Virus record (IMG/VR): IMGVR_UViG_3300025138_000129
Location: 1 to 36,552 of that record
From: a virus
Length of the DNA stretch: 36,552 nucleotides
Reading direction: 5' to 3' (one strand)
In this document: positions 1 to 25,137 of the stretch, one piece after another
How the letters are laid out: every line of letters begins with the position of its first letter
How positions within the stretch are numbered: position 1 is the stretch's first letter
The notes under the pieces: model-generated
Told to the model about the DNA's origin: nothing
Databases searched by the model: none
Seen by the model: the letters and a program-made list of their open reading frames with translations, nothing else
Translations under genes and position numbers: made by a program

Positions 1-1161
1 GACATAAATCATCAGATAGAACTATATAAGTCCAAGATGGATTCACAAGAAAAGTATATCAAAAATCTGGCATCTATTAATAAAGATATGATAGAACAGA
101 AACATCAATCCATAGAAGACCACAAGTCTGAAATAAGTACACTCTTTGAAGATTCTAAGGTAGTAGGTAAAAATCTTACTGCATTAATATCTGCAGAAGA
201 AAAGTCACAAACCATCTTTATGGATAGAATGTCCGATATTAAATCAGCTCAGAATGAAAATAACAATAAGATAAAAACATTAGTAAAAGATGCTAGATTC
301 TTTGAGGACAATGATATATGTCCTACTTGTGAGCAAGAAATAGACGAAAGTATTAAGAATGAAAAACTTAGTGCTTTAAAGAAGAATGCTGCAGATGTAC
401 AAGGTAATATACAAACTATTCAAAAAGAAGTCTCTATTGCAGAACGTGAAGGCAATGAAATTAAGAATAAGTTAAATGAGCTCAGACAAAGACAGCAACG
501 TATTAACTCAAACAATGATAAGATTTCAGTTATACAACGTGAAGTAGATAAAGTCCAAAAAGAAATAAATGGTCTATCAGGACAGACTGGCGATCTTAGA
601 GGTGCTAAGAAAGAATTAGTCGGTCTTAGAAATTCCAAAGATGTATCGACAGAGAAGAAATTGCAGTATGTAGAAGAAAGAACATATAATGAAGTAATCG
701 GCGAAATGTTAAAAGATACTGGAATCAAGACTAAAGTTATTAAACAATATCTACCAGTTATGAATAGGTTAATTAATAATTATCTACAAGTTCTGGACTT
801 CTTTGTTGCATTCCATCTGGATGAAAACTTTAACGAAACAATCAGGTCAAGACATCGTGATTCATTAAAGTTTTCATCCAGATGGAATGCAACAAAGAAG
901 TCAATTGACTTATCTCTCCTATTTACTTGGAGACAGATAGCTAAGATGAAGAATTCTGCCAGTACCAATCTATTGATTCTGGATGAAACTTTTGACTCCA
1001 GTCTGGATGTGGATGGTGTAGAGAATCTGACCAAAATACTAAGTACGCTAGATGATGATTCTAATGTCTTTATCATATCCCATAAGGGAGATATGTTAGA
1101 GAACAAGTTCCGATCCAAGATAGAGTTCTTCAAGCATAAGAATTTCAGTAAAATACGATAG
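1..1161 (+). CDS. gp46: Recombination endonuclease subunit gp46 (SbcC/Rad50-like), 5' truncated by window edge
   Basis: C-terminal part of the T4 gp46 family, the ABC-type ATPase that works with the gp47 nuclease in DNA end resection and recombination-dependent replication. The reading frame is open back to base 1, so the ATG at 37 is internal and the N-terminal Walker A lies outside the window. Visible parts are long coiled-coil segments, a zinc-hook CPTC at 319-330, the Walker B/D-loop region LLILDETFDSSLD near 967-1005 and the H-loop histidine at 1081-1083. The ABC signature (SEGEK-like in this family, expected just before IDLSLLFTWR) is absent. In its place is a peptide encoded by the reverse complement of upstream sequence (see the repeat at 796-902). 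The gene is therefore either a mutated ATPase or carries a sequence artefact. Family assignment is secure. Confidence 0.93.
   Translation, partial: DINHQIELYKSKMDSQEKYIKNLASINKDMIEQKHQSIEDHKSEISTLFEDSKVVGKNLTALISAEEKSQTIFMDRMSDIKSAQNENNNKIKTLVKDARFFEDNDICPTCEQEIDESIKNEKLSALKKNAADVQGNIQTIQKEVSIAEREGNEIKNKLNELRQRQQRINSNNDKISVIQREVDKVQKEINGLSGQTGDLRGAKKELVGLRNSKDVSTEKKLQYVEERTYNEVIGEMLKDTGIKTKVIKQYLPVMNRLINNYLQVLDFFVAFHLDENFNETIRSRHRDSLKFSSRWNATKKSIDLSLLFTWRQIAKMKNSASTNLLILDETFDSSLDVDGVENLTKILSTLDDDSNVFIISHKGDMLENKFRSKIEFFKHKNFSKIR
796..902. repeat. 38-bp perfect inverted repeat inside gp46
   Basis: Arms 796-833 and 865-902 are perfect reverse complements. Allowing one mismatch extends them to 796-837 and 861-902, leaving a 23-nt spacer. 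The left arm encodes the DFFVAFHLDENFNE stretch that fits the gp46 family. The right arm encodes LKFSSRWNATKKS where the ABC signature should be. The two arms together could form a very stable cruciform or hairpin. Confidence 0.95.
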
Positions 1162-1199
1162 ATCAGCCATATTTATTCACGCCAGAGCGACATTAATGG

Positions 1200-1228
1200 T
1201 TGACAAATCTGCCACGCCGTAGTATAAT
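1200..1228 (+). promoter_or_regulatory. Sigma70-type promoter upstream of the VWA gene
   Basis: TTGACA at 1200-1205 and TATAAT at 1223-1228 with a 17-bp spacer. The sequence CCGTAG directly before the -10 box and TATACCTATATTAAA after it are shared with the promoters at 3404 and 25078, and are followed by the same GATAAGGAGTT ribosome-binding segment. Confidence 0.88.
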
Positions 1229-1256
1229 ATACCTATATTAAAGATAAGGAGTTAAT

Positions 1257-3380
1257 ATGAAACAAACCTCACTACTACCCAAACTACTGGCTAAAGAGAA
1301 TGTTACTATTCAACATGGTAATTTTAAGACTGCCTGGTTTGACATCAAGAATCGTGTTCTTGGACTACCCCTGTGGGAAGATATGCATAAAGATGTATAT
1401 GACTTGTTTGTTGGCCACGAAGTTGGTCATGCTCTAGAAACTCCATTTGAAGGTTGGCACGACAGCCCTGATAAATTAAAAGGTTGCCCTAGGTCTTATA
1501 TCAACGTAGTCGAAGACGCAAGAATCGAAAGAAAAATTCAGGCAAGATACCCTGGATTGGTTGGTTCATTTAACAGAGGTTATAACCAATTACTTGATAG
1601 AGAATTCTTTGGAGACTTAACCAATATTGATTGGGATCAAGTTAAACTTATAGACAAGATTAATCTTAAAACAAAACTTGGTACTAAACTAGAAGTACCT
1701 TTCTCTGATGAAGAAAGAACATTCCTAGTCAGATCACTTAACACATCCACATTTGATGAGGTTCTGGACCTAGTTAGAGACATTCTAGCTTGGACTAAAG
1801 AGAACCAAGACGAATTGATGCAGAAACCTGAACCAAAAACCTTAGAGGATCAAAATAATGAGGAGCAAAATTCCGAAGAAAACGATACCCCAGGCCATGA
1901 TGACGCAGAAGATTCGTCAGAAGACACAGAAGAAGCTTCAGGCGACGGCGGAGAATCAGAAGATACTGAATCAGAAGAAAAGACCGAAGAAGTCACAGTA
2001 AATGCAGTTGAACCTGAACACACTCAAGACGAACTGGATATATCTATCACGGACACTATTTTTAGAGAAAAAGAAAAGACCCTTACAATGGGTGATGATA
2101 AAGTCCAACCAGTATTTATCGGCGATGTCAATAAAGATGCAATAGATAAAGTAGTTATTAATTATGCTAAACTTAAAGAAGCTAGAGAATTACATGCAAA
2201 AGAATACGCATCAGATAGTAGTTATGGTTCATACTATTATGAAGACGAAAAGCCAGATTTCAAGACATACTTAAAGTCAGTTAAGAAAAATGTCCAAGTT
2301 GCTGTTAAAGAGTTTGAAATGAGAAAGGCAGCATATCAGTACACTAGAGCTACAACAGCCAAAACCGGTACTATTAATGTTAATAAACTTTGGTCTTATA
2401 AGACCAATGAGGATATCTTTTTAACAGCTACTAATCTAGCCAATGCTAAGAATCATGGAATGATGCTTCTAATTGATATGTCTGGATCAATGTCAGGTTC
2501 AATGAACCAGGTAATGGATCAGGTCATGCACTTGGTTATGTTTTGTAAAGCTACGAACATCCCGTTTGATGTTTATGGGTTTACTTCAACAAACAGGGAC
2601 GTAAATTATGAGTGGCAAAAACAGAACCCAGGTGTAGTTGACTTAGATAATTTGTCAATGCCTAATATATGTTCATCGTCTCTTAATAAGAAAGATTTTA
2701 TTGATTCTATGGAACACATGCACAAGAGAGCAACCATGAGGTCTTCATGGGGTGAATTATGTAGCTATGAGGAGTGGGGTTCAACACCTCTTAATCAGGC
2801 TCTCATGGTTTCACATCACCTTGTTAAGAAGTTCAAAGCTAGACACGGTATTGAGAAAATGAATTTTATCACCTTTACCGATGGTGATGCTAATAATATT
2901 TCTACTTACACTAGGAGTGATGCAGAGATTTGGCCTGATAGACACAATGCGGTTATTCAAGTAGATGGTACTATGATTAAGACCAAAACTGGTTCTAGGG
3001 TCGTAACTAAGTCACTTCTTGATAATCTATCCAAGAAGTACAATACAAATAATATTGGATTCTTTATGGCTGATGACAATCATCACTGGAGACAAAGACT
3101 TTGGATTCTGGCTAACTCATTAAATAAGCATTCAGAAGAATACAAAAAAGATGCGAACAAAGAATATAGACAAAATAAATGTGTTACAGTTGACAATGTT
3201 CTTGGTTACAATGAGTACTACTTAGTAAAAGGTGGTAAAAATCTGGAGACGCAAGAAGATGACTTTTCGGTTAAAGATGATGCGTCTAATGCAAATATCA
3301 GAACGGCATTTAAGAAGTTTGCCAAGAGTAAGAAACAGAACAAAGTATTGATGACTAAGTTCGGAAAGGCAGTAGCATAA
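1257..3380 (+). CDS. Metallopeptidase-like and VWA domain protein (CobT/ViaA-type partner of an AAA+ ATPase)
   Basis: A 707-residue protein. Near the N-terminus it has a zinc-peptidase motif HEVGH (residues 54-58), followed about 28 residues later by NVVEDARIE, which could supply the third zinc ligand. Residues about 190-265 form a very acidic, Glu/Asp/Ser-rich linker. The C-terminal half is a von Willebrand A domain with a MIDAS DMSGS (D407, S409, S411), a STPL threonine near 510 and FTDGD near 541. The next gene is a MoxR-type AAA+ ATPase with the same promoter cassette, the usual arrangement for MoxR-VWA chaperone pairs (CobS-CobT, RavA-ViaA). The acidic linker before the VWA domain also resembles CobT. 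The start has a good AAGGAG. The role in the phage is unknown; activity of the peptidase motif is inferred. No cobalamin genes are seen here. Confidence 0.82.
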   Translation: MKQTSLLPKLLAKENVTIQHGNFKTAWFDIKNRVLGLPLWEDMHKDVYDLFVGHEVGHALETPFEGWHDSPDKLKGCPRSYINVVEDARIERKIQARYPGLVGSFNRGYNQLLDREFFGDLTNIDWDQVKLIDKINLKTKLGTKLEVPFSDEERTFLVRSLNTSTFDEVLDLVRDILAWTKENQDELMQKPEPKTLEDQNNEEQNSEENDTPGHDDAEDSSEDTEEASGDGGESEDTESEEKTEEVTVNAVEPEHTQDELDISITDTIFREKEKTLTMGDDKVQPVFIGDVNKDAIDKVVINYAKLKEARELHAKEYASDSSYGSYYYEDEKPDFKTYLKSVKKNVQVAVKEFEMRKAAYQYTRATTAKTGTINVNKLWSYKTNEDIFLTATNLANAKNHGMMLLIDMSGSMSGSMNQVMDQVMHLVMFCKATNIPFDVYGFTSTNRDVNYEWQKQNPGVVDLDNLSMPNICSSSLNKKDFIDSMEHMHKRATMRSSWGELCSYEEWGSTPLNQALMVSHHLVKKFKARHGIEKMNFITFTDGDANNISTYTRSDAEIWPDRHNAVIQVDGTMIKTKTGSRVVTKSLLDNLSKKYNTNNIGFFMADDNHHWRQRLWILANSLNKHSEEYKKDANKEYRQNKCVTVDNVLGYNEYYLVKGGKNLETQEDDFSVKDDASNANIRTAFKKFAKSKKQNKVLMTKFGKAVA

Positions 3381-3403
3381 TGCAAATTAATTTGACAAAA
3401 GTG

Positions 3404-3432
3404 TTGACAAACGGCCAGAACCGTAGTATAAT
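3404..3432 (+). promoter_or_regulatory. Sigma70-type promoter upstream of the AAA+ gene
   Basis: TTGACA at 3404-3409, 17-bp spacer, TATAAT at 3427-3432. The 38 nt from CCGTAG through AAGGAGTT (3421-3458) are identical to 25095-25132. A second TTGACA at 3392-3397 lies just upstream but has no -10 box at correct spacing. Confidence 0.88.
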
Positions 3433-3464
3433 ATACCTATATTAAATGATAAGGAGTTTTAATT

Positions 3465-4622
3465 ATGAATGAAGTGAGAATATCAACCCAAAACATTGTC
3501 AAGAAATTGATCACAATGTACCCAGACCAGACACAATTCAGAAAGAATGTGATCGTGGATACTGCAAAATCTATGGGATACAGAAGTCCCGATTTTGTTC
3601 CCCTAATCCAAAAAGATGCCAGAGTAAAGATCGGCACTTATGACTTAACCACTGCTATAGAAGTAGTGAAACCAGAAATGAGTAATCAGGTAGTTAATAC
3701 TATGGACCCAACCCCAGTCGCAGCAGCGCAGATGCAGTCAATTGTGAATGACGAAAAATCATATGCAAGAATTGATCCTACTTTTGTCCCATGGGGCGCG
3801 TATACAGACGTTGTTAAGATTGTGAAATCAGAGATGTTTTATCCAGTATATATATCTGGACTCTCTGGTAACGGAAAGACCTTTATGGTTGAACAAGCTG
3901 CAGCTAAACTCGGAAGAGAGTTTATCAGAGTGCAGATTAACCCAGAAACTGACGAGGATGATTTACTTGGTGGATTTAGACTTATTAACGGCGAGACTGT
4001 CTTTTCAAAAGGACCGGTACTTAAGGCAATGGAGAATGGTGCAATTTTACTTCTCGATGAAATTGATAGAGCTACAAATAAAATTATGTGTCTTCAAGGT
4101 ATACTTGAAGGTAAACCTGTCCTCGTTAAGAAAACGGGTGAAACAATTACTCCTGCGTCTGGCTTCAATGTTATAGCGACAGCGAATACAAAAGGTAAAG
4201 GATCCGAAGACGGAAGATTCACAGCGGCGTCTATCATTGACGATGCTTTCTTAGAGAGATTCACAGTGGCTGTTGACCAACAGTTCCCTAGTATTTCGGT
4301 TGAGAAAAAGATCGTGATTAATCACATGAAAAAGTTTGACTTGGTTGACGATGGATTCGCAGAGAATCTGGTCGCCTGGGCTGATATTATCAGAAAGACT
4401 TTCTATGATGATGGTGTTGACGAAGTCATTTCAACCAGAAGGTTGTGCCACATCGTCCAAACCTTCTCCATCTTTAAAGATAAGATGAAGTCAATAGACC
4501 TATGTATTGCGAGATTTGACGATGACACTAAACTGGCTTTCCTTGACCTATACACGAAAGTGGATCAAGGGGTTACATTTGATGAGCCAACAATAGAGGA
4601 AACTAATGAAACCGATTTCTAA
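3465..4622 (+). CDS. MoxR/CobS-type AAA+ ATPase
   Basis: 385 residues. Walker A GLSGNGKT (residues 132-139), Walker B LLLDEID (D198, E199) and a sensor-1 ATANT segment place it in the AAA+ MoxR/CobS group, which remodels complexes together with VWA-domain partners. The N-terminal ~110 residues are a separate, unassigned domain. It follows the VWA-metallopeptidase gene and carries its own copy of the same promoter, so the two are likely expressed at the same time. CobS-like proteins are common in marine T4-like phages, but cobaltochelatase activity cannot be concluded. The start is fixed by AAGGAG at 3450-3455. Confidence 0.88.
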   Translation: MNEVRISTQNIVKKLITMYPDQTQFRKNVIVDTAKSMGYRSPDFVPLIQKDARVKIGTYDLTTAIEVVKPEMSNQVVNTMDPTPVAAAQMQSIVNDEKSYARIDPTFVPWGAYTDVVKIVKSEMFYPVYISGLSGNGKTFMVEQAAAKLGREFIRVQINPETDEDDLLGGFRLINGETVFSKGPVLKAMENGAILLLDEIDRATNKIMCLQGILEGKPVLVKKTGETITPASGFNVIATANTKGKGSEDGRFTAASIIDDAFLERFTVAVDQQFPSISVEKKIVINHMKKFDLVDDGFAENLVAWADIIRKTFYDDGVDEVISTRRLCHIVQTFSIFKDKMKSIDLCIARFDDDTKLAFLDLYTKVDQGVTFDEPTIEETNETDF

Positions 4623-4905
4623 ACCGGATTATAAATTTAACGAAGGGGCTCTTATTGAAGAGCTCCAAGCGTATATTGATTCAACCTACGGCGCTCACTA
4701 TGGACAGGGTGGACTACAGTCTTCCGAAGTCATAGTAGACAGAGGGCATGGGATGGGATTCTTTTTAGGTAATGTAGACAAATATGTTGCACGATATGGA
4801 AAGAAAGGTAAGACCCCTGAGGAATTCCGAAAGGACCTTCAAAAAGTCTTACATTATGGATTGCTTGCTTTGTATGAACACGATCGCATGTATGATGAAA
4901 AATAA
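4606..4905 (+). CDS. DUF3310-family phage protein (nucleotide kinase-like)
   Basis: 99 residues, starting inside the end of the AAA+ gene (17-nt overlap), so probably translationally coupled. The C-terminal half, with GNVDKYVARYG, a G-K-T-PEEFRKDL stretch and a hydrophobic HYGLLALYEHD helix, matches the pattern of DUF3310, a small phage family related to the T7 gene 1.7/SaV proteins. Members are thought to act in nucleotide metabolism, though the evidence is limited. The N-terminus is not recognised. Next comes the gp45 promoter. Confidence 0.6.
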   Translation: MKPISKPDYKFNEGALIEELQAYIDSTYGAHYGQGGLQSSEVIVDRGHGMGFFLGNVDKYVARYGKKGKTPEEFRKDLQKVLHYGLLALYEHDRMYDEK

Positions 4906-4908
4906 CCC

Positions 4909-4937
4909 TTTACTTTTACCAGTAAATGTGTTATAAT
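4909..4937 (+). promoter_or_regulatory. Sigma70-type promoter for gp45
   Basis: TTTACT at 4909-4914, 17-bp spacer, TATAAT at 4932-4937. The block CCCTTTACTTTTA is also found at the promoters near 8958 and 14112 (the 11532 copy agrees in its first 13 bases), and TGTTATAATATA is shared with 8958 and 20231. Confidence 0.88.
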
Positions 4938-4965
4938 ATAAACTATGAATAAAACAGGAGAAAAT

Positions 4966-5749: not shown

Positions 5750-6007
5750 ATGACTGAAGAAGTAAACGCAGTAGAAACTGCACAGGACGAGGCACCTCAA
5801 CTGTCTCTACAAGACATCGCAACGATGGTACAGATTATTGATGTCTGTTCCAAGCGTGGTGGCTTTGAAGGACCAGAACTGGAAGCAGTTGGTTCATTGA
5901 GAAACCGAGTAGTAGCATTCTTGAATGCAGCTGCTCCTAAAGACGGTGAAGCACCAACAGGTGAAATGCCGGTCGAAGAAGTGGAAGAAGATTCAGTCGA
6001 ATCTTAA
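5750..6007 (+). CDS. Conserved small acidic phage protein, function unknown
   Basis: 85 residues. An N-terminal acidic tail, a central helical segment (LSLQDIATMVQIIDVCSKRGG, then a helix ELEAVGSLRNRVVAFLN) and a C-terminal acidic, Glu/Val-rich tail. The sequence recalls small hypothetical proteins of marine T4-like phages, but I cannot name a domain. It has a strong AAAGGAG ribosome-binding site and is followed after 6 nt by a strong intrinsic terminator. A TATAAATA box lies about 110 nt upstream. It may therefore be a one-gene late transcription unit between gp45 and the clamp-loader operon. Confidence 0.8.
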   Translation: MTEEVNAVETAQDEAPQLSLQDIATMVQIIDVCSKRGGFEGPELEAVGSLRNRVVAFLNAAAPKDGEAPTGEMPVEEVEEDSVES

Positions 6008-6013
6008 TCACAC

Positions 6014-6040
6014 GGGGCCTTCGGGCCCCTCATTTTTTTT
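6014..6040 (+). terminator. Strong intrinsic terminator
   Basis: GGGGCC (6014-6019), a UUCG tetraloop, GGCCCC (6024-6029), then TCA and eight T residues (6033-6040). It ends the unit containing the gene at 5750. Confidence 0.93.
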
Positions 6041-6055
6041 ATTATGGAGTATATT

Positions 6056-6313
6056 ATGAATACCAATGAAAGTAAAGCGCTACTTGAAGCGCTAAAAAAA
6101 GGAACTGTCACAGTAACTTTTAGAAAAATAGACACAGGGGAACTTAGAGTTATGCCCTGTACTCTCAATCCAGCAGTCCTGGAAGCAAACAACGTTGCAA
6201 ATAAAGTCAATTATGAACCTCAAAACATGGAAGCTTTTCCTGTTTGGTCATTAGACAAAGATGCATGGCGTGCTTTTAGACTAGACACTGTTGAAGGTTG
6301 GGAGGTTCTTTGA
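6056..6313 (+). CDS. DUF2693-like SH3-barrel phage protein
   Basis: 85 residues. The pattern ALLEALKKGTVTVTFRKIDTG...LRVMPCTLNP... ending in a W-x-x-x-R-F/L-D-x segment (DAWRAFRLDTVEGWEV) resembles DUF2693, small SH3-fold barrels common in T4-like phages of marine bacteria. Function is unknown. I chose ATG 6056 because GGAG at 6046-6049 sits at normal distance; the ATG at 6044 overlaps that site. The stop codon overlaps the gp44 start (TGATG), so it is coupled to the clamp-loader operon. Confidence 0.8.
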   Translation: MNTNESKALLEALKKGTVTVTFRKIDTGELRVMPCTLNPAVLEANNVANKVNYEPQNMEAFPVWSLDKDAWRAFRLDTVEGWEVL

Positions 6314-8870: not shown

Positions 8871-8898
8871 GGGGGTAAGAAATTACCCCCAACCTTTT
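8871..8898 (+). terminator. Intrinsic terminator after hsp20 unit
   Basis: GGGGGTAA (8871-8878), GAAA tetraloop, TTACCCCC (8883-8890): a perfect 8-bp stem, followed by AACCTTTTAT. The T run is short but the stem is strong. Confidence 0.75.
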
Positions 8899-8908
8899 AT
8901 GTACATAT

Positions 8909-8932
8909 AAGTGTATACAAACTACACTTTTT
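8909..8932 (+). terminator. Second weaker hairpin with T run
   Basis: AAGTGTA (8909-8915) pairs with TACACTT (8923-8929) over a 7-nt loop, giving TTTTT at 8928-8932. It backs up the terminator at 8871 and isolates the gp43 promoter. GTACATATAA also occurs twice around it (8901 and 8934). Confidence 0.5.
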
Positions 8933-8957
8933 CGTACATATAAATGCTAGAAATCCC

Positions 8958-8986
8958 TTTACTTTTACCCTAGGATGTGTTATAAT
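8958..8986 (+). promoter_or_regulatory. Sigma70-type promoter for gp43
   Basis: TTTACT at 8958-8963, 17-bp spacer, TATAAT at 8981-8986, with the shared CCCTTTACTTTTACC and TGTTATAATATA blocks seen at the gp45 promoter. Confidence 0.88.
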
Positions 8987-9016
8987 ATATACTATTAACA
9001 AGGTGACAAATTCGTT

Positions 9017-11527
9017 ATGAAATTCTACACAAATGTAACTCGATATGGTAATATGTTACTCTATCGTGGCTATGAAAATGGCCAAAAGAAACAAGAAAAG
9101 ATCAAATACAAACCAACTCTGTTTGTCAATACCCCCAAACCAACCCCTTGGAAATCCTTAGACGGAGTACCAGTTGCTCCTATTCAAATGGAATCTATGC
9201 GTGACGCCAAAGAGTGGATCGCTTCTAATAAACAAACAGCCGGTAGGTTAATATTCGGCAATGACCGATACATACCTGCTTATATTAATGACGAATTTCC
9301 AGGCATCATCGAGTGGGATAGAAACAAGATCAATGTAACATCATTTGATATCGAAGTTGCCTCTGATGACGGTTTCCCAGAACCAGATAAAGCAGATTAC
9401 CCAGTAATATCAATTGCCATGAAAAATAATATTGACAATACATATTATGTTTGGGGTCTTAATGACTATGACGTGGAAAATTCTTTAATGAAAGATAACC
9501 GTGTGGTCTACAAAAAATGTGGTTCTGAGGCTGAATTACTATCAGACTTTATATTACACTGGTGTCTACCATCTAACTGCCCCGATGTTATTACAGGCTG
9601 GAACATCAGATTCTTTGATGTCCCCTACCTAGTAAACAGAACAATTAAAATTCTTGGCGATGACATGGCTAAAAGATTTTCGCCGTGGGGTCTTGTTGAC
9701 CGATATGACGTTAAGATGATGGGTCGTGAACAGTGCACATATGACTTAAAAGGTATATCCACAATTGATTACCTAGAATTATTCCAAAAGTTTGGCTACT
9801 CTTATGGTACCCAAGAATCTTACAGACTCGATCACATTGCTAATGTAGTTCTTGGAGAAAAGAAACTATCTTATGCAGAACACGGTTCACTCCATACATT
9901 ATACAAGTTTGACCATCAAAAGTTTATTGATTATAATATCAAAGACGTAGAGTTGGTTGATCGGCTAGAAGACAAGATGGGTCTTATTACTCTATGTCTT
10001 ACAATGGCTTATCAAGGTGGCGTGAATTACAACGACACATTCGGAGTAACTTCGATATGGGAATCAATTATTCATAGATACCTATACGAGAACAAAGTCT
10101 GTATGCCGTTCTATGAGAACAAGGTAAAGACTAATTATCCTGGTGGTTATGTAAAAGATCCAGTGGTTGGTCTACACGAGAACGTAGTTTCGTTTGACCT
10201 TAACTCTCTGTATCCTTCTCTGATTATGCAATATAATATGTCGACAGAAACAATCGCTAATGGTGAAGTAATGAACCTAGACATAGAGAAACTGCTCCAA
10301 GGTTATACCTTTAAGAATCCTGGTAAGGCAATTGGCGGCAACGGGCAGATGTTTAGAACAGATAAGAAAGGCTTTATGCCTACTCTTGTAGATGGTATGT
10401 ACAGCGAACGTGTTGGCATTAAGAAAGAAATGCTCTCGGCACAACGAGAGTTGCAAAAGGTAGATAAACATGATAAACAAAAACTTTATGATATTGAAAG
10501 GCGAATTAACATTGCCGAAAATCGGCAAATGGCTATTAAGATTCTTCTTAATTCTCTTTATGGTGCTATGGGCAACAAGTACTTCAGGTTCTTTGACCAA
10601 CGTATCGCAGAGGCCATTACTCTGTCTGGACAACTTACAATTCGGTGGGCAGAGGTCGCCATTAATAAGTATCTCAACAAGGTGTTGTCTACCAAAGGTA
10701 AGGACTATGTCATTGCCATTGACACCGACAGTTTGTATGTTAGCCTAGATGATTTGGTTAAACTTGTTAACCCAGTCAATAAGATTGATTTCCTAGACAA
10801 GGTTGCAGAAGATAGACTAGAACCAGTACTTGCAGATGCCTATGTAGATTTATATAAGATGATGGGCGGAATCGAAGACAGAATGGTAATGAAAAGAGAA
10901 GTTATTGCTGATCGCGGCATCTGGACAGCAAAGAAAAGATATATTTTAAATGTGTTCGACAATGAAGGGGTTCGTTATGCAGAACCCAAACTTAAAATCA
11001 TGGGTATTGAGGCTATCAAATCATCAACTCCAGAACCATGTCGAGATGCTCTTAAAGAAATCTTTAAAGTGATTATGTCCGGTGATGAAGTAAAGACCCA
11101 GATGGCCATTAAACAATTTAAACGGTATTTTAACTCACTAGATGCAGATAAAATTGCATTTCCCCGCGGAGTCTCTAATGTAACCGACTACCGAGATGCA
11201 GGTACAATCTATAGAAAAGGTACTCCTATTCATGTTCGTGCAGCTTTGTTACACAATAACCTGTTGGACCATTATAGTCTAAATAAGAAGTATGAACATA
11301 TTAAAAATGGCGAGAAGATCAAGTTTATCTATCTTAAAGTACCCAACAGCTTGAAAGAAAATGTTATCGGATTTTCGCAGTATTTACCTGAAGAATTTAA
11401 ACTCGCTAAATACATAGACTATGAATTACAATTTCAGAAAACATTCTTGGCCCCAATCGAGCCAATACTAAAATCAATCGGTTGGTCGTCAGAAGAACAA
11501 TCATCTTTAGAAAGTTTTTTTGGCTAA
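9017..11527 (+). CDS. gp43: DNA polymerase gp43 (family B)
   Basis: 836-residue replicative polymerase with 3'-5' exonuclease. Exo I FDIE (D111, E113), Exo II FFDVPY (D201) and Exo III YNIKD (D310) are intact. Polymerase motif A is FDLNSLYPS (D394), motif B is KILLNSLYG (508-516) and motif C is DTDS (D569, D571). The extreme C-terminus SSLESFFG matches the clamp-binding tail used by T4/RB69 gp43 to hold gp45. It is somewhat shorter than T4 gp43 (898). It has its own promoter of the conserved set and AAGGTGAC ahead of the ATG. Assignment is certain. Confidence 0.98.
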   Translation: MKFYTNVTRYGNMLLYRGYENGQKKQEKIKYKPTLFVNTPKPTPWKSLDGVPVAPIQMESMRDAKEWIASNKQTAGRLIFGNDRYIPAYINDEFPGIIEWDRNKINVTSFDIEVASDDGFPEPDKADYPVISIAMKNNIDNTYYVWGLNDYDVENSLMKDNRVVYKKCGSEAELLSDFILHWCLPSNCPDVITGWNIRFFDVPYLVNRTIKILGDDMAKRFSPWGLVDRYDVKMMGREQCTYDLKGISTIDYLELFQKFGYSYGTQESYRLDHIANVVLGEKKLSYAEHGSLHTLYKFDHQKFIDYNIKDVELVDRLEDKMGLITLCLTMAYQGGVNYNDTFGVTSIWESIIHRYLYENKVCMPFYENKVKTNYPGGYVKDPVVGLHENVVSFDLNSLYPSLIMQYNMSTETIANGEVMNLDIEKLLQGYTFKNPGKAIGGNGQMFRTDKKGFMPTLVDGMYSERVGIKKEMLSAQRELQKVDKHDKQKLYDIERRINIAENRQMAIKILLNSLYGAMGNKYFRFFDQRIAEAITLSGQLTIRWAEVAINKYLNKVLSTKGKDYVIAIDTDSLYVSLDDLVKLVNPVNKIDFLDKVAEDRLEPVLADAYVDLYKMMGGIEDRMVMKREVIADRGIWTAKKRYILNVFDNEGVRYAEPKLKIMGIEAIKSSTPEPCRDALKEIFKVIMSGDEVKTQMAIKQFKRYFNSLDADKIAFPRGVSNVTDYRDAGTIYRKGTPIHVRAALLHNNLLDHYSLNKKYEHIKNGEKIKFIYLKVPNSLKENVIGFSQYLPEEFKLAKYIDYELQFQKTFLAPIEPILKSIGWSSEEQSSLESFFG

Positions 11528-11531
11528 ACCC

Positions 11532-11560
11532 TTTACTTTTAAGACTAAATATGTTATAAT
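11532..11560 (+). promoter_or_regulatory. Sigma70-type promoter ahead of the Sm-like/glycosyltransferase operon
   Basis: TTTACT at 11532-11537, 17-bp spacer, TATAAT at 11555-11560, beginning 5 nt after the gp43 stop. It has the same CCCTTTACTTTTA block as the gp45 and gp43 promoters. Confidence 0.87.
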
Positions 11561-11583
11561 AGACACATTAACAGGAGAAAAAT

Positions 11584-13155: not shown

Positions 13156-14103
13156 ATGGCCAAGATTATAATGTACTGGTCTAATATACCAGAAAAATCA
13201 GGTTATACTACCGTTGATGAATGGAGAAATAGTGAATTACAATTTTCTCCGCATCATGATTTAGTATTTAAATCGCACGAAAGATTAGGTAATGATGTAG
13301 AAATATGGACACATCAAAAAGTATCAGAATTTAATTATAGTGGTATTACAATAAAAGATGCTGGCGAAATTATGTCGCATGATATTTGTTTTGATGGTTT
13401 GTCATGGGGCCATTCAATTGCATTTATAGCAGATACCGTAAGAGTCAAGAGAGCAAGTGAAGTATTAGGTATTGTACTAGATATGGATTCTGTTTGTCTA
13501 AGACCATTTCCAGAATATGATAGTTGGTTCAGTACTATGCCAGCAAAAATTACTAGCAGTATGGCTCCTAAATGGGGACCAAAGAAACCACCAATGACAG
13601 TACATGATGGGTCGTGGGATGGTAAAGCTCTTACTGCATTTCCAATTAAAATTGGTTCTACAACACAAAAAGAAATGTCAGCCTTGGCCGATAGTATACA
13701 CGAAAAATTTAAAACAAAGCCTAAAGGTGGATCCGATGAATGGAACTCTATTCTTTGGACAGTAAAGAAGATCGCTAATAATGATACAACTGCTAAAGTA
13801 TTTGAACCAATCTATATGAGTCCGTTACCCGCATGGTTACCAGTTGGCAAATGTTATAGCCTTGAAAGTCCTACTAGATTAGATGGCGTAACAGAAATCT
13901 TTGGTTACCCATTGCCTTCGATTAAAGACATAATGAGCAAGTCGTTTATTGTCGCTCATTTCTTTGAGAGTGCATTTCAGAATGCCGACCAGATCGAGGC
14001 AGACAAATGGGATAGTATATCTGACGACAGTTTGCTAGCGAAAGAAATGGATCTAATAGGCTATAAGAGAAATAAACCCACATCCCTAGACGACTTTTTT
14101 TAA
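13156..14103 (+). CDS. Putative GT32-like (DxD) glycosyltransferase with clamp-binding tail
   Basis: 315 residues. The N-terminal IIMYWSN...ELQFSPHHDLVFKSHERLG and the central SEVLGIVLDMDSVCLRPF, with DxD at 109-111, resemble family-32/capsular-type glycosyltransferases, where DxD binds the nucleotide sugar. The protein ends in SLDDFF (310-315). This closely matches the gp43 C-terminus SLESFFG, the clamp-binding peptide, suggesting that this enzyme docks on gp45. The ATG at 13156 follows the previous stop by one base. An in-frame TTG at 13147 is less likely. Neighbouring the TAGT gene and the replisome, it is a candidate DNA-modifying glycosyltransferase; the acceptor is not known. Confidence 0.62.
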   Translation: MAKIIMYWSNIPEKSGYTTVDEWRNSELQFSPHHDLVFKSHERLGNDVEIWTHQKVSEFNYSGITIKDAGEIMSHDICFDGLSWGHSIAFIADTVRVKRASEVLGIVLDMDSVCLRPFPEYDSWFSTMPAKITSSMAPKWGPKKPPMTVHDGSWDGKALTAFPIKIGSTTQKEMSALADSIHEKFKTKPKGGSDEWNSILWTVKKIANNDTTAKVFEPIYMSPLPAWLPVGKCYSLESPTRLDGVTEIFGYPLPSIKDIMSKSFIVAHFFESAFQNADQIEADKWDSISDDSLLAKEMDLIGYKRNKPTSLDDFF

Positions 14104-14111
14104 AATAACCC

Positions 14112-14140
14112 TTTACTTTTACACAAAAGTGTAGTATAAT
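14112..14140 (+). promoter_or_regulatory. Sigma70-type promoter, giving a nearly leaderless mRNA
   Basis: TTTACT at 14112-14117, 17-bp spacer, TATAAT at 14135-14140. The ATG of the following gene is at 14150, so the expected transcript begins about 2-4 nt before the start codon. GTAGTATAATATA is shared with the promoters at 1200, 3404, 19604 and 25078. Confidence 0.87.
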
Positions 14141-14149
14141 ATACTTATT

Positions 14150-15070
14150 ATGATATCAGGTACGCTATTTAAATCTCTCTATGAGACGGCAACTGTCAAT
14201 AAAATTGACTTTGAGACTTTTGATCAGTTTGAAAAAGTACTGTATAAATTGTCAGATATCCCTAGAAAAGACAAGACATCAGCATATCTAATGTCTCCCG
14301 CATCTTATTTAGAAAATACCACAAGAAAAAATGATAATGTTACTAAATGGGGTAGCTGGTGCGCAGTAGACGTAGATGATTTTGTTGGTGAACTAAAAGA
14401 ATTCCTAGAACAGAAATGCGGCAAGTATCACTTTGTCTGTTATTCTACGGCGTCATCTACTAAAGAAACCCCGAAATTCAGATTGGTATTCCCACTAACT
14501 CGTGAGGTAACCAGAGAAGAAATTAAACATTTCTGGTTTGCTTTAAATACAGAACTGGGCGAGATGGGTGATATTCAGACTAAAGATTTATCAAGAATGT
14601 ATTATATTCCTGGCAAATATGTTAATGCAAATAATTTTATATTTACCAATGAAGGTAGTCATATAGACCCAGAAGTGTTAATGGATTCACATGAGTACAT
14701 TGAAAAAGCTGGTAACACCTTCTTTGATAAATTACCAAAATCTATGCAAGATGCCCTAATTAATCATACAAAGAATTCTCTAACAAATACGGATGTCAAA
14801 TGGAATTCATATCGTGACTGTCCATTCTTTCCAAAACAGTTAGAATCAGAATATAAAGTTATAAGTGGATCAGGTTGGTACTATAAGATGTATCAAATAA
14901 TGGTCGCATTGGCAGGTAATGCTATAAAGGCTAAATACCCTATAACAAGTAAAGAAATTGCATGGATGTGCAGAGAGTTGGACATGGATACTGGTAACTG
15001 GTATGACAAACGTCCATTAGACAAAGAGGCTGATCGGGCCCTAGATTATGTAATGAGGAATCAATTATGA
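14150..15070 (+). CDS. Putative archaeo-eukaryotic primase (AEP)-like protein
   Basis: 306 residues. SWCAVDVDDF has an acidic DhD pair as in AEP motif I. YSTASSTKETPKFRLVFPL resembles the STxSHTxxxPRxRLVxPL segment around AEP motif II, but the usual His is Ser/Thr here. TKDLSRMYYIPGKYV resembles the region around motif III. The C-terminal ~100 residues (KMYQIMVALAGNAI..., TSKEIAWMCRELD) look like a small helical primase-associated domain. It could be the priming protein of this replisome or an inactive relative. I see no gp61 here. It has its own promoter and no ribosome-binding site, as for a leaderless mRNA. Confidence 0.5.
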   Translation: MISGTLFKSLYETATVNKIDFETFDQFEKVLYKLSDIPRKDKTSAYLMSPASYLENTTRKNDNVTKWGSWCAVDVDDFVGELKEFLEQKCGKYHFVCYSTASSTKETPKFRLVFPLTREVTREEIKHFWFALNTELGEMGDIQTKDLSRMYYIPGKYVNANNFIFTNEGSHIDPEVLMDSHEYIEKAGNTFFDKLPKSMQDALINHTKNSLTNTDVKWNSYRDCPFFPKQLESEYKVISGSGWYYKMYQIMVALAGNAIKAKYPITSKEIAWMCRELDMDTGNWYDKRPLDKEADRALDYVMRNQL

Positions 15071-16684: not shown

Positions 16685-17012
16685 TAACCAAGAAATTTTT
16701 GAATTACACTACTTAATTAGTAAAGTAGAGCAATGGCATGAAGATCGCAATCTTCTTAAAGGAGCTACTGATAAAGATCAAGTATTGAAACTAATACAAG
16801 AAGTCGGAGAACTTTCTGATAATGTATGTAAGGGCCAAGATATCCGTGATGATATAGGAGATATTATGGTGGTCTTAATTAATATCATGGCACGTAACGA
16901 ATTAACTCTGGAGGAGTGTTTATCAGTGGCGTATGATGATATAAAAGACCGAAAAGGTAAAATGGTTGATGGTATATTTATTAAAGACGAAGGGTTGACA
17001 AACACTCATTAA
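16674..17012 (+). CDS. MazG-like nucleotide pyrophosphohydrolase
   Basis: 112 residues. The metal-binding pattern LIQEVGELSDNVCKG...DIRDDIGDIMVVLINI (ExxE followed by ExxD/DxxD) is that of the all-alpha MazG/dUTPase-like NTP pyrophosphatases. These remove NTPs/dNTPs or, as proposed for marine phages, may alter alarmone or nucleotide balance. It overlaps the dehydrogenase end by 11 nt. The promoter for the next gene lies in its last codons. Only one MazG domain is present. Substrate is unknown. Confidence 0.82.
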   Translation: MTINNQEIFELHYLISKVEQWHEDRNLLKGATDKDQVLKLIQEVGELSDNVCKGQDIRDDIGDIMVVLINIMARNELTLEECLSVAYDDIKDRKGKMVDGIFIKDEGLTNTH

Positions 17013-17023
17013 TGTGTTATAAT
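16995..17023 (+). promoter_or_regulatory. Sigma70-type promoter inside the end of the MazG-like gene
   Basis: TTGACA at 16995-17000, 17-bp spacer, TATAAT at 17018-17023, with the TGTTATAATA block. The epimerase ATG is at 17034, leaving an expected leader of about 3-5 nt. Confidence 0.85.
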
Positions 17024-17033
17024 AGGTTATATT

Positions 17034-19196: not shown

Positions 19197-19631
19197 ATGA
19201 AAGTAGGTATTACTTGTTCCACATTTGATTTGTTACACTCAGGTCATGTGGCAATGCTAAGAGAAGCAAAAACTGCATGTGATTATTTAATCTGTGCATT
19301 ACAGAATGACCCGTCGGTCGATCGGCCAAATAAGAATCAACCAGTTCAAAATATAGTTGAGAGGCAAGCACAACTTGCCGCTATCAGATATGTGGATGAA
19401 ATTCTTGTATACAATACCGAAGACGAACTAAGGGACATTCTAAGTATGTATCAGATAGATGTTAAGATTATGGGCGAAGAATACAGGGATATAGACTTTA
19501 CTGGTAAAGATATTTGCCAGAAACGTGGAATTGAATTCTATTTTAACAAACGTGATCACAGATTTTCTACATCAGACTTACGCAAAAGAGTCGAAGAAAA
19601 CTCTTTACAAATAGGGAAAAGTGTAGTATAA
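19197..19631 (+). CDS. Cytidylyltransferase (TagD/RfaE-like nucleotidyltransferase)
   Basis: 144 residues. CSTFDLLHSGHV has the HxGH motif (H14, H17) of the cytidylyltransferase superfamily. The KRDHRFSTSDLRKR end is the second nucleotide-binding (xSTSxLR) motif. Relatives activate glycerol-3-phosphate, ADP-heptose precursors or ethanolamine phosphate; the substrate cannot be read from sequence. It fits the local set of sugar/nucleotide-activation genes. Its TAA stop (19629-19631) lies inside the -10 box of the next promoter. Confidence 0.82.
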   Translation: MKVGITCSTFDLLHSGHVAMLREAKTACDYLICALQNDPSVDRPNKNQPVQNIVERQAQLAAIRYVDEILVYNTEDELRDILSMYQIDVKIMGEEYRDIDFTGKDICQKRGIEFYFNKRDHRFSTSDLRKRVEENSLQIGKSVV

Positions 19632-19632
19632 T
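19604..19632 (+). promoter_or_regulatory. Sigma70-type promoter overlapping the cytidylyltransferase stop
   Basis: TTTACA at 19604-19609, 17-bp spacer, TATAAT at 19627-19632. GTAGTATAATATACCTATTAA matches the set used at 1200, 3404 and 25078. The -10 box contains the upstream gene's stop codon. Confidence 0.85.
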
Positions 19633-19664
19633 ATACCTATTAATAAATAACTGGAACTTATATT

Positions 19665-20246
19665 ATGAATGAATTGATTAAAAATAAAACTGATTGGCTT
19701 CCTATCTCATGGATTCCAAGTACCAACTCAACCGAATGGCGCAAATTTGTAAAAGAAAATGGCGTTGATGGGGCCGTCCGAGGATGTTACCAAGTAGCTC
19801 TTGTCAAAGATATTGAAGCTATTGGAGACAACTTAGTGCATAAAGCAATAGGATATAATGGAAAAGCTAAAGATGTAATCGGCCGAACTGGTGGTATTAG
19901 AGCGCCAAAAGGTAGACATGGTGCAAGAGTATATATTGACAAATATAACTTGGATAGAGCCAAAGATGTAGTTATTAGATATCTGATAGTTGATGATGTT
20001 GAAAATAAAGAACTGGAACTAGAGCGTCTTATACACACTGCACACCAAGAGAAGTTTGGATGGGATTTTGCGTGGAGAGAAGCTAGTGGCGGTATAGATG
20101 GTAAGTATGATAAAATTCTAGCAGAAGTTGAATATCTAACATCTAAACAGATGATTGGTATTATCGGAGAGATAATGCAATTATCCAAACAGAAAGCTTT
20201 ACAAGAACATGAAGAAAAGCTAATAAACACTTTACAATCAGAGTAA
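19665..20246 (+). CDS. Putative GIY-YIG-fold nuclease-like protein
   Basis: 193 residues. The central part GCYQVALV ... HKAIGYNGKAKDVIGRTGGIR is arranged like a GIY ... YIG pair followed by the conserved Arg. The downstream ELERLIHTAHQEKFGWDFAWREASGG could supply the catalytic Glu. Comparable proteins are found in marine T4-like phages, usually unnamed. The motif is degenerate (GCY and GYNG), so it may be inactive or a different fold. A coiled C-terminal helix follows. It has its own promoter and precedes that of bS21-uvsX. Confidence 0.45.
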   Translation: MNELIKNKTDWLPISWIPSTNSTEWRKFVKENGVDGAVRGCYQVALVKDIEAIGDNLVHKAIGYNGKAKDVIGRTGGIRAPKGRHGARVYIDKYNLDRAKDVVIRYLIVDDVENKELELERLIHTAHQEKFGWDFAWREASGGIDGKYDKILAEVEYLTSKQMIGIIGEIMQLSKQKALQEHEEKLINTLQSE

Positions 20247-20259
20247 AATGTGTTATAAT
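20231..20259 (+). promoter_or_regulatory. Sigma70-type promoter for bS21-uvsX
   Basis: TTTACA at 20231-20236, inside the end of the upstream gene; 17-bp spacer; TATAAT at 20254-20259, with TGTTATAATATA as at gp45 and gp43. CCGGAG follows at 20274-20279 before the bS21 ATG. Confidence 0.87.
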
Positions 20260-20284
20260 ATATACTTAATAAACCGGAGAACAT

Positions 20285-25068: not shown

Positions 25069-25077
25069 AAAAAAGTG

Positions 25078-25106
25078 TTGACAAATGGTCTCAGCCGTAG
25101 TATAAT
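25078..25106 (+). promoter_or_regulatory. Sigma70-type promoter, last of the conserved set
   Basis: TTGACA at 25078-25083, 17-bp spacer, TATAAT at 25101-25106. 25095-25132 is identical to 3421-3458, including the AAGGAGTT ribosome-binding segment. It drives the small genes before the structured RNA element. Confidence 0.88.
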
Positions 25107-25137
25107 ATACCTATATTAAATGATAAGGAGTTATAAT

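Follow-up and report, generated by a model that had tools for sequence, protein, structure and literature searches.

In the window, by which we mean the whole 36,552-nt stretch analysed (record IMGVR_UViG_3300025138_000129), one arm of a long inverted repeat stands in place of the ABC signature of gp46. The best explanation, in our estimate at a probability of about 0.6, is that a single quasi-palindrome template switch produced it as a 'templated' mutation in a T4-like phage of marine origin. The window begins with an open frame (1-1161) whose 386 codons form the C-terminal part of gp46, the Rad50/SbcC-like subunit. The PHROG 77 profile matches this fragment over residues 1-385 (E 1.5e-67), a Pfam search of it gave no match, and a search of solved structures returned a coiled-coil chance match only. 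The Walker A motif belongs to the N-terminal part of the protein, outside the window record, and was read instead in the relative L092, a 15.5-kb record which carries a full-length 571-aa gp46 with the Walker A GQNGAGKST and in which gp47 adjoins gp46 and overlaps its start, in the order gp47-gp46. The features of the gene piece are as follows.

1..1161, + strand: gene 46, 3' two thirds, its 5' part beyond the record end (PHROG 77; full-length homologue in L092).
319..330, + strand: Zn-hook CPTC, residues 107-110, intact in the translation, the Cys being invariant in the alignment.
796..833, + strand: left arm, putatively the source of the copy, with the usual coding sequence of gp46 (DFFVAFHLDENFN region) by identity to the relatives L001, L004 and L083.
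834..864, + strand: spacer of 31 nt, unchanged; 834-840 and 858-864 pair at 5 of 7 positions and are part of the pre-existing quasi-palindrome.
865..902, + strand: right arm, the overwritten tract, reverse complement of 796-833, with altered bases at 867-902.
970..1008, + strand: Walker B / D-loop LLILDETFDSSLD, intact in the translation, with invariant or near-invariant columns.
1072..1086, + strand: switch/H-loop IISHK, intact in the translation, with invariant columns.

Recomputation confirmed the repeat described in the initial annotation: over 38 nt, 796-833 is the perfect reverse complement of 865-902, with a 31-nt spacer between the two, and the arms extend to 45 nt (796-840/858-902) when two mismatches are allowed. 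Given the base composition of the window, about 4e-16 such perfect repeats are expected by chance per window. Folded as single-stranded DNA, the site reaches -45 kcal/mol (z = -11.7), while the corresponding stretch of L001 folds at -10.4 (z = 0.03), no better than its shuffles. In the 1.75 Mb of fetched loci, which come mostly from related phages, a search for further perfect inverted repeats with arms of at least 20 nt found none, and a survey of 0.69 Mb gave no inverted repeat longer than 17 nt besides the window's own.

The ancestral state can be read from a close relative. A pattern search using the left arm and the spacer retrieved L083 (IMGVR_UViG_3300017783_000443, of which L092 is the whole record), which is 97.8% identical to the window over positions 1-3698 (3.7 kb) and has the normal DSFNYASFSEGEKQRI where the window has the derived tract DSLKFSSRWNATKKSI, the two being equal in length. 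At the level of the right arm, the overwrite changes FNYASFSEGEKQR into LKFSSRWNATKKS; the TT at 865-866 is common to the ancestral form, so that the altered tract proper is 867-902. Over the 1161-nt gene piece the window and L083 differ at 37 positions, 21 of them inside 867-902 and the other 16 scattered, and both flanks are intact, with no mismatch at 664-866 or at 903-1095. At each of the 21 mismatches, the window has the base obtained by reverse-complementing its own left arm. That left arm was said to hold the sequence expected for gp46, and it is indeed identical to L083 at all 38 positions (37/38 for L004 and 36/38 for L001). The derived right arm matches the window's left arm at 38 of 38 positions, against 17 of 38 for L083 taken as the ancestral proxy. 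As the copied arm carries the variants of the window's own strain (38/38, where L001 has 36/38), it was templated within the window lineage. Elsewhere in gp46, 13 codons differ from those of L083 synonymously and only 3 non-synonymously. So few non-synonymous changes indicate that the rest of gp46 has not decayed, and therefore that the event is recent, or absent from the organism altogether.

We then compared the tract with the gp46 family. The window reads HRD-SLKFSSRWNATKKS-IDL where relatives read HRD-SFNYASFSEGEKQR-IDL, with 14 residues in both, and the T4 equivalent, SRGREDFSYASFSEGEKARID, has equal length counted from the SR; the length argument of the initial annotation thus holds, for T4 as well as for the relatives. 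Alignment with these relatives also places the right arm at the expected site of the signature, as proposed, and the frame remains open over 1-1161 with the signature replaced. In all 80 loci retrieved by an initial scan, FNYASFSEGEKQR or one of its near variants is present with unchanged spacing, and the tract is almost invariant across 20 aligned relatives. Further gp46 genes were collected by a pattern blind to the motif (H-R-D, 42 nt, I-D-L-x-L-L-F-T-W). Across all fetched loci, 185 of 186 distinct sites have an S-x-G-E-K/R/Q signature between these anchors, and the window is the sole exception, with SSRWNATKK in place of S-x-G-E-K. This rejects the possibility that gp46 genes of this family lack the motif by nature, as the other 185 gp46 genes and that of T4 all retain it. 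Searching IMG/VR with the inverted form in codon-degenerate notation gave no match, a result that applies to strains other than the window's own population, and two exact flank patterns each matched only L083 and the L001 contig, both intact. Structure predictions for the window and L083 fragments gave pLDDT below about 60 across the nucleotide-binding (NBD) half because the N-terminal lobe is absent from them; the predicted start of the signature helix (296 in L083, 304 in the window) comes with confidences too low to use.

The comparison with L083 bears out the proposal of the initial annotation that a template switch in a quasi-palindrome wrote one arm over the other at constant length. The L083 axis (centre 849) is already an imperfect inverted repeat, with 7 of 9 pairs at 858-866, 15 of 23 at 858-880 and 22 of 45 over the full 45 nt; the 15/23 pairing was equalled by only 16 of the 41,553 axes tested in the gene. 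In the proposed sequence of events, the nascent strand would snap back at about position 866, with 858-866 pairing with 832-840. The folded strand would then copy 38 nt of its own earlier product (833 back to 796), unfold, re-anneal in its old register and resume at 903; re-annealing in register would account for the unchanged length. The pre-existing repeat at the axis and the constant-length overwrite fit the Ripley model. Microhomology is present on the entry side and absent on the exit side (GTC/AATTGAC), and entry at about 866 is therefore the likelier direction, but the last copied bases, 901 T and 902 C, would have been mismatched on return, a step that a proofreading polymerase should resist. 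For templated mutations of T4, PMC3016281, citing Schultz et al. 2006, describes how the polymerase uses an imperfect repeat as its template and then goes back to the right position, and the same source reports snap-back synthesis by the T4 polymerase.

We favour, with moderate confidence, an in-vivo origin of the overwrite. The same double template switch could also have occurred in vitro, during whole-genome amplification or library PCR, with a few derived reads setting the consensus near the contig end, and we regard this as possible but doubtful. Among the artefacts of multiple displacement amplification, inverted chimeras predominate (85% of 475 junctions, PMC1855051), and library-preparation artefacts arise at natural inverted repeats (PMC10908179). 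The site also lies 0.8 kb from the record end, where coverage may be thin, and the inverted form is private and damages a gene that is essential in T4. However, amplification chimeras are typically one-junction fold-backs with intervening deletions (PMC1855051), and library artefacts are typically low-frequency soft-clipped reads (PMC10908179), whereas the window has two junctions, an exact in-register return and constant length. In addition, no other unexplained defect of such kind appears against L093 over 16 kb. The right junction, GTC/AATTGAC, does not overlap the sequence that would follow in the copied strand, GTC/CAGAAC, and leaves an assembler without microhomology for joining reads. 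Judged from the junction sequence, a pure assembler join is unlikely to be the origin: without an overlap usable by k-mers, a molecule with that junction was presumably sequenced.

The gp46/47 complex is the phage's own palindrome-specific nuclease, and the affected Rad50-like gene is one that handles hairpins. Lacking its SEGEK signature, gp46 is predicted to have lost all or nearly all capacity for ATP-driven dimerisation. In T4 Rad50, mutation of the signature motif lowers the DNA activation of ATP hydrolysis (Herdendorf and Nelson 2011, cited in PMC13402864), and according to PMC3016281 gp46/47 is essential in T4, with DNA-arrest phenotypes among the strongest; a null or near-null protein would therefore be expected. 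By the same essentiality, a phage carrying the change should be strongly disadvantaged, which counts against the in-vivo reading. The variant is thus most likely recent, private to one record, deleterious and without spread. It is very improbable that the palindrome protects itself, one copying error making a long hairpin and at the same time disabling gp46/47, so that the hairpin is not cleaved and can survive in nature, perhaps with complementation from intact phages that co-infect.

The initial annotation had considered that a fixed change would mean a non-catalytic or reversible gp46. We hold a fixed functional change to be highly unlikely, whether it gives a gp46 without catalysis or retains the hairpin for regulation or structure. 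In its favour, the frame stays open with no stop codon, the remaining protein is conserved and the hairpin formed by the DNA has high stability; nevertheless, a tract almost invariant in the 20 aligned relatives has been replaced wholesale, the inverted form occurs in no relative, and the new peptide is merely the antisense reading of the left arm. Least probable, with close to no chance in our view, is a site that switches back and forth between the SEGEK and inverted forms. Spacer inversion can be mediated by inverted repeats elsewhere (PMC8604942), but inverting the 31-nt spacer would not restore the signature. Because the overwritten 36 nt have no second copy anywhere in the window, they cannot be regenerated by inversion of the spacer or by another fold-back, and only recombination with an intact genome during co-infection would allow a return. 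A reversible gp46 is therefore not supported, since the original 36 nt are lost from the molecule, the inverted form was found in no relative and gp46/47 is essential in T4 (PMC3016281), all of which point to a loss-of-function change and not to a switch.

We also looked at the remainder of the window. No other template-switch scar was found in it, and the other dense clusters of mismatches against L092 or L093 lack a substantial reverse-complement source nearby. One such cluster, at 2187-2229 in the gene 1257-3380, holds 12 differences from L092 (ARELHAKEYASDSS versus ARTLHAEGQADDSS) with no inverted source nearby and looks like ordinary divergence or recombination. A terminator-like hairpin in the region 5996-6280 has stems that differ between the window (GGGGCCTTCGGGCCCC) and L093 (GGGGGGTGTAAAAACCCCCC) and is followed by a highly diverged stretch up to 6280, and a 47-nt intergenic stretch at 8897-8943 (TATGTACATATAAGTGTATACAAACTACACTTTTTCGTACATATA region) is missing from L093. 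Two promoter-like elements are repeated. The first (CCCTTTACTTTTA ... GTTATAATATA) is sigma-70-like and occurs in five mostly intergenic copies, at 4895-4952, 8944-9001, 11518-11575, 14098-14155 and 20217-20274. The second (GTTGACAAA ... CCGTAGTATAATATACCTATATTAAA), which is also common to L092 and L093, is found at 1199-1242, 3403-3446, 19603-19646 and 25077-25120, with a looser copy at 16990-17024.

If the overwrite is real, it would clearly capture, in nature, a templated mutation of a T4-like phage from the environment, for which the ancestor, the source arm and the derived arm are all known, and in which the damage falls in a Rad50-like gene, essential in T4, that itself handles hairpins. 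It would also indicate that phage genomes in the wild undergo single-step replacements of 13 residues. Should it be an artefact, consensus viral contigs can hold in-frame, length-neutral false sequence that is invisible to frameshift checks.

Finally, we compared the site with known systems. It resembles the templated mutations of T4 (Ripley 1982; Schultz and Drake; reviewed in PMC3016281) in that an imperfect repeat of the same molecule is copied, the return is correct and the repeat is perfected, and the type of phage lineage is the same. It differs from them by its long tract (38 nt, 21 changed bases), by a starting repeat that is weak beyond its inner part (22/45), and because it is known from an assembled environmental sequence while the T4 cases are selected laboratory mutants. 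Arm homogenisation in Saccharomyces (PMC8604942) likewise produces an in-frame multinucleotide coding change by one inverted-repeat arm templating the other, although the yeast events mostly alter one or two residues whereas the event in the window replaces a 13-residue block that includes the catalytic signature. With T4 gp46, Rad50 and SbcC, the window shares the gene itself, the gp47-gp46 order (seen in the relative), the Zn hook, the Walker B/D-loop and the switch motif, and it departs from them in the signature motif, which is missing in the window record only. The mutational class is thus already known, and it is the length, the cleanness and the gene affected that are unusual.
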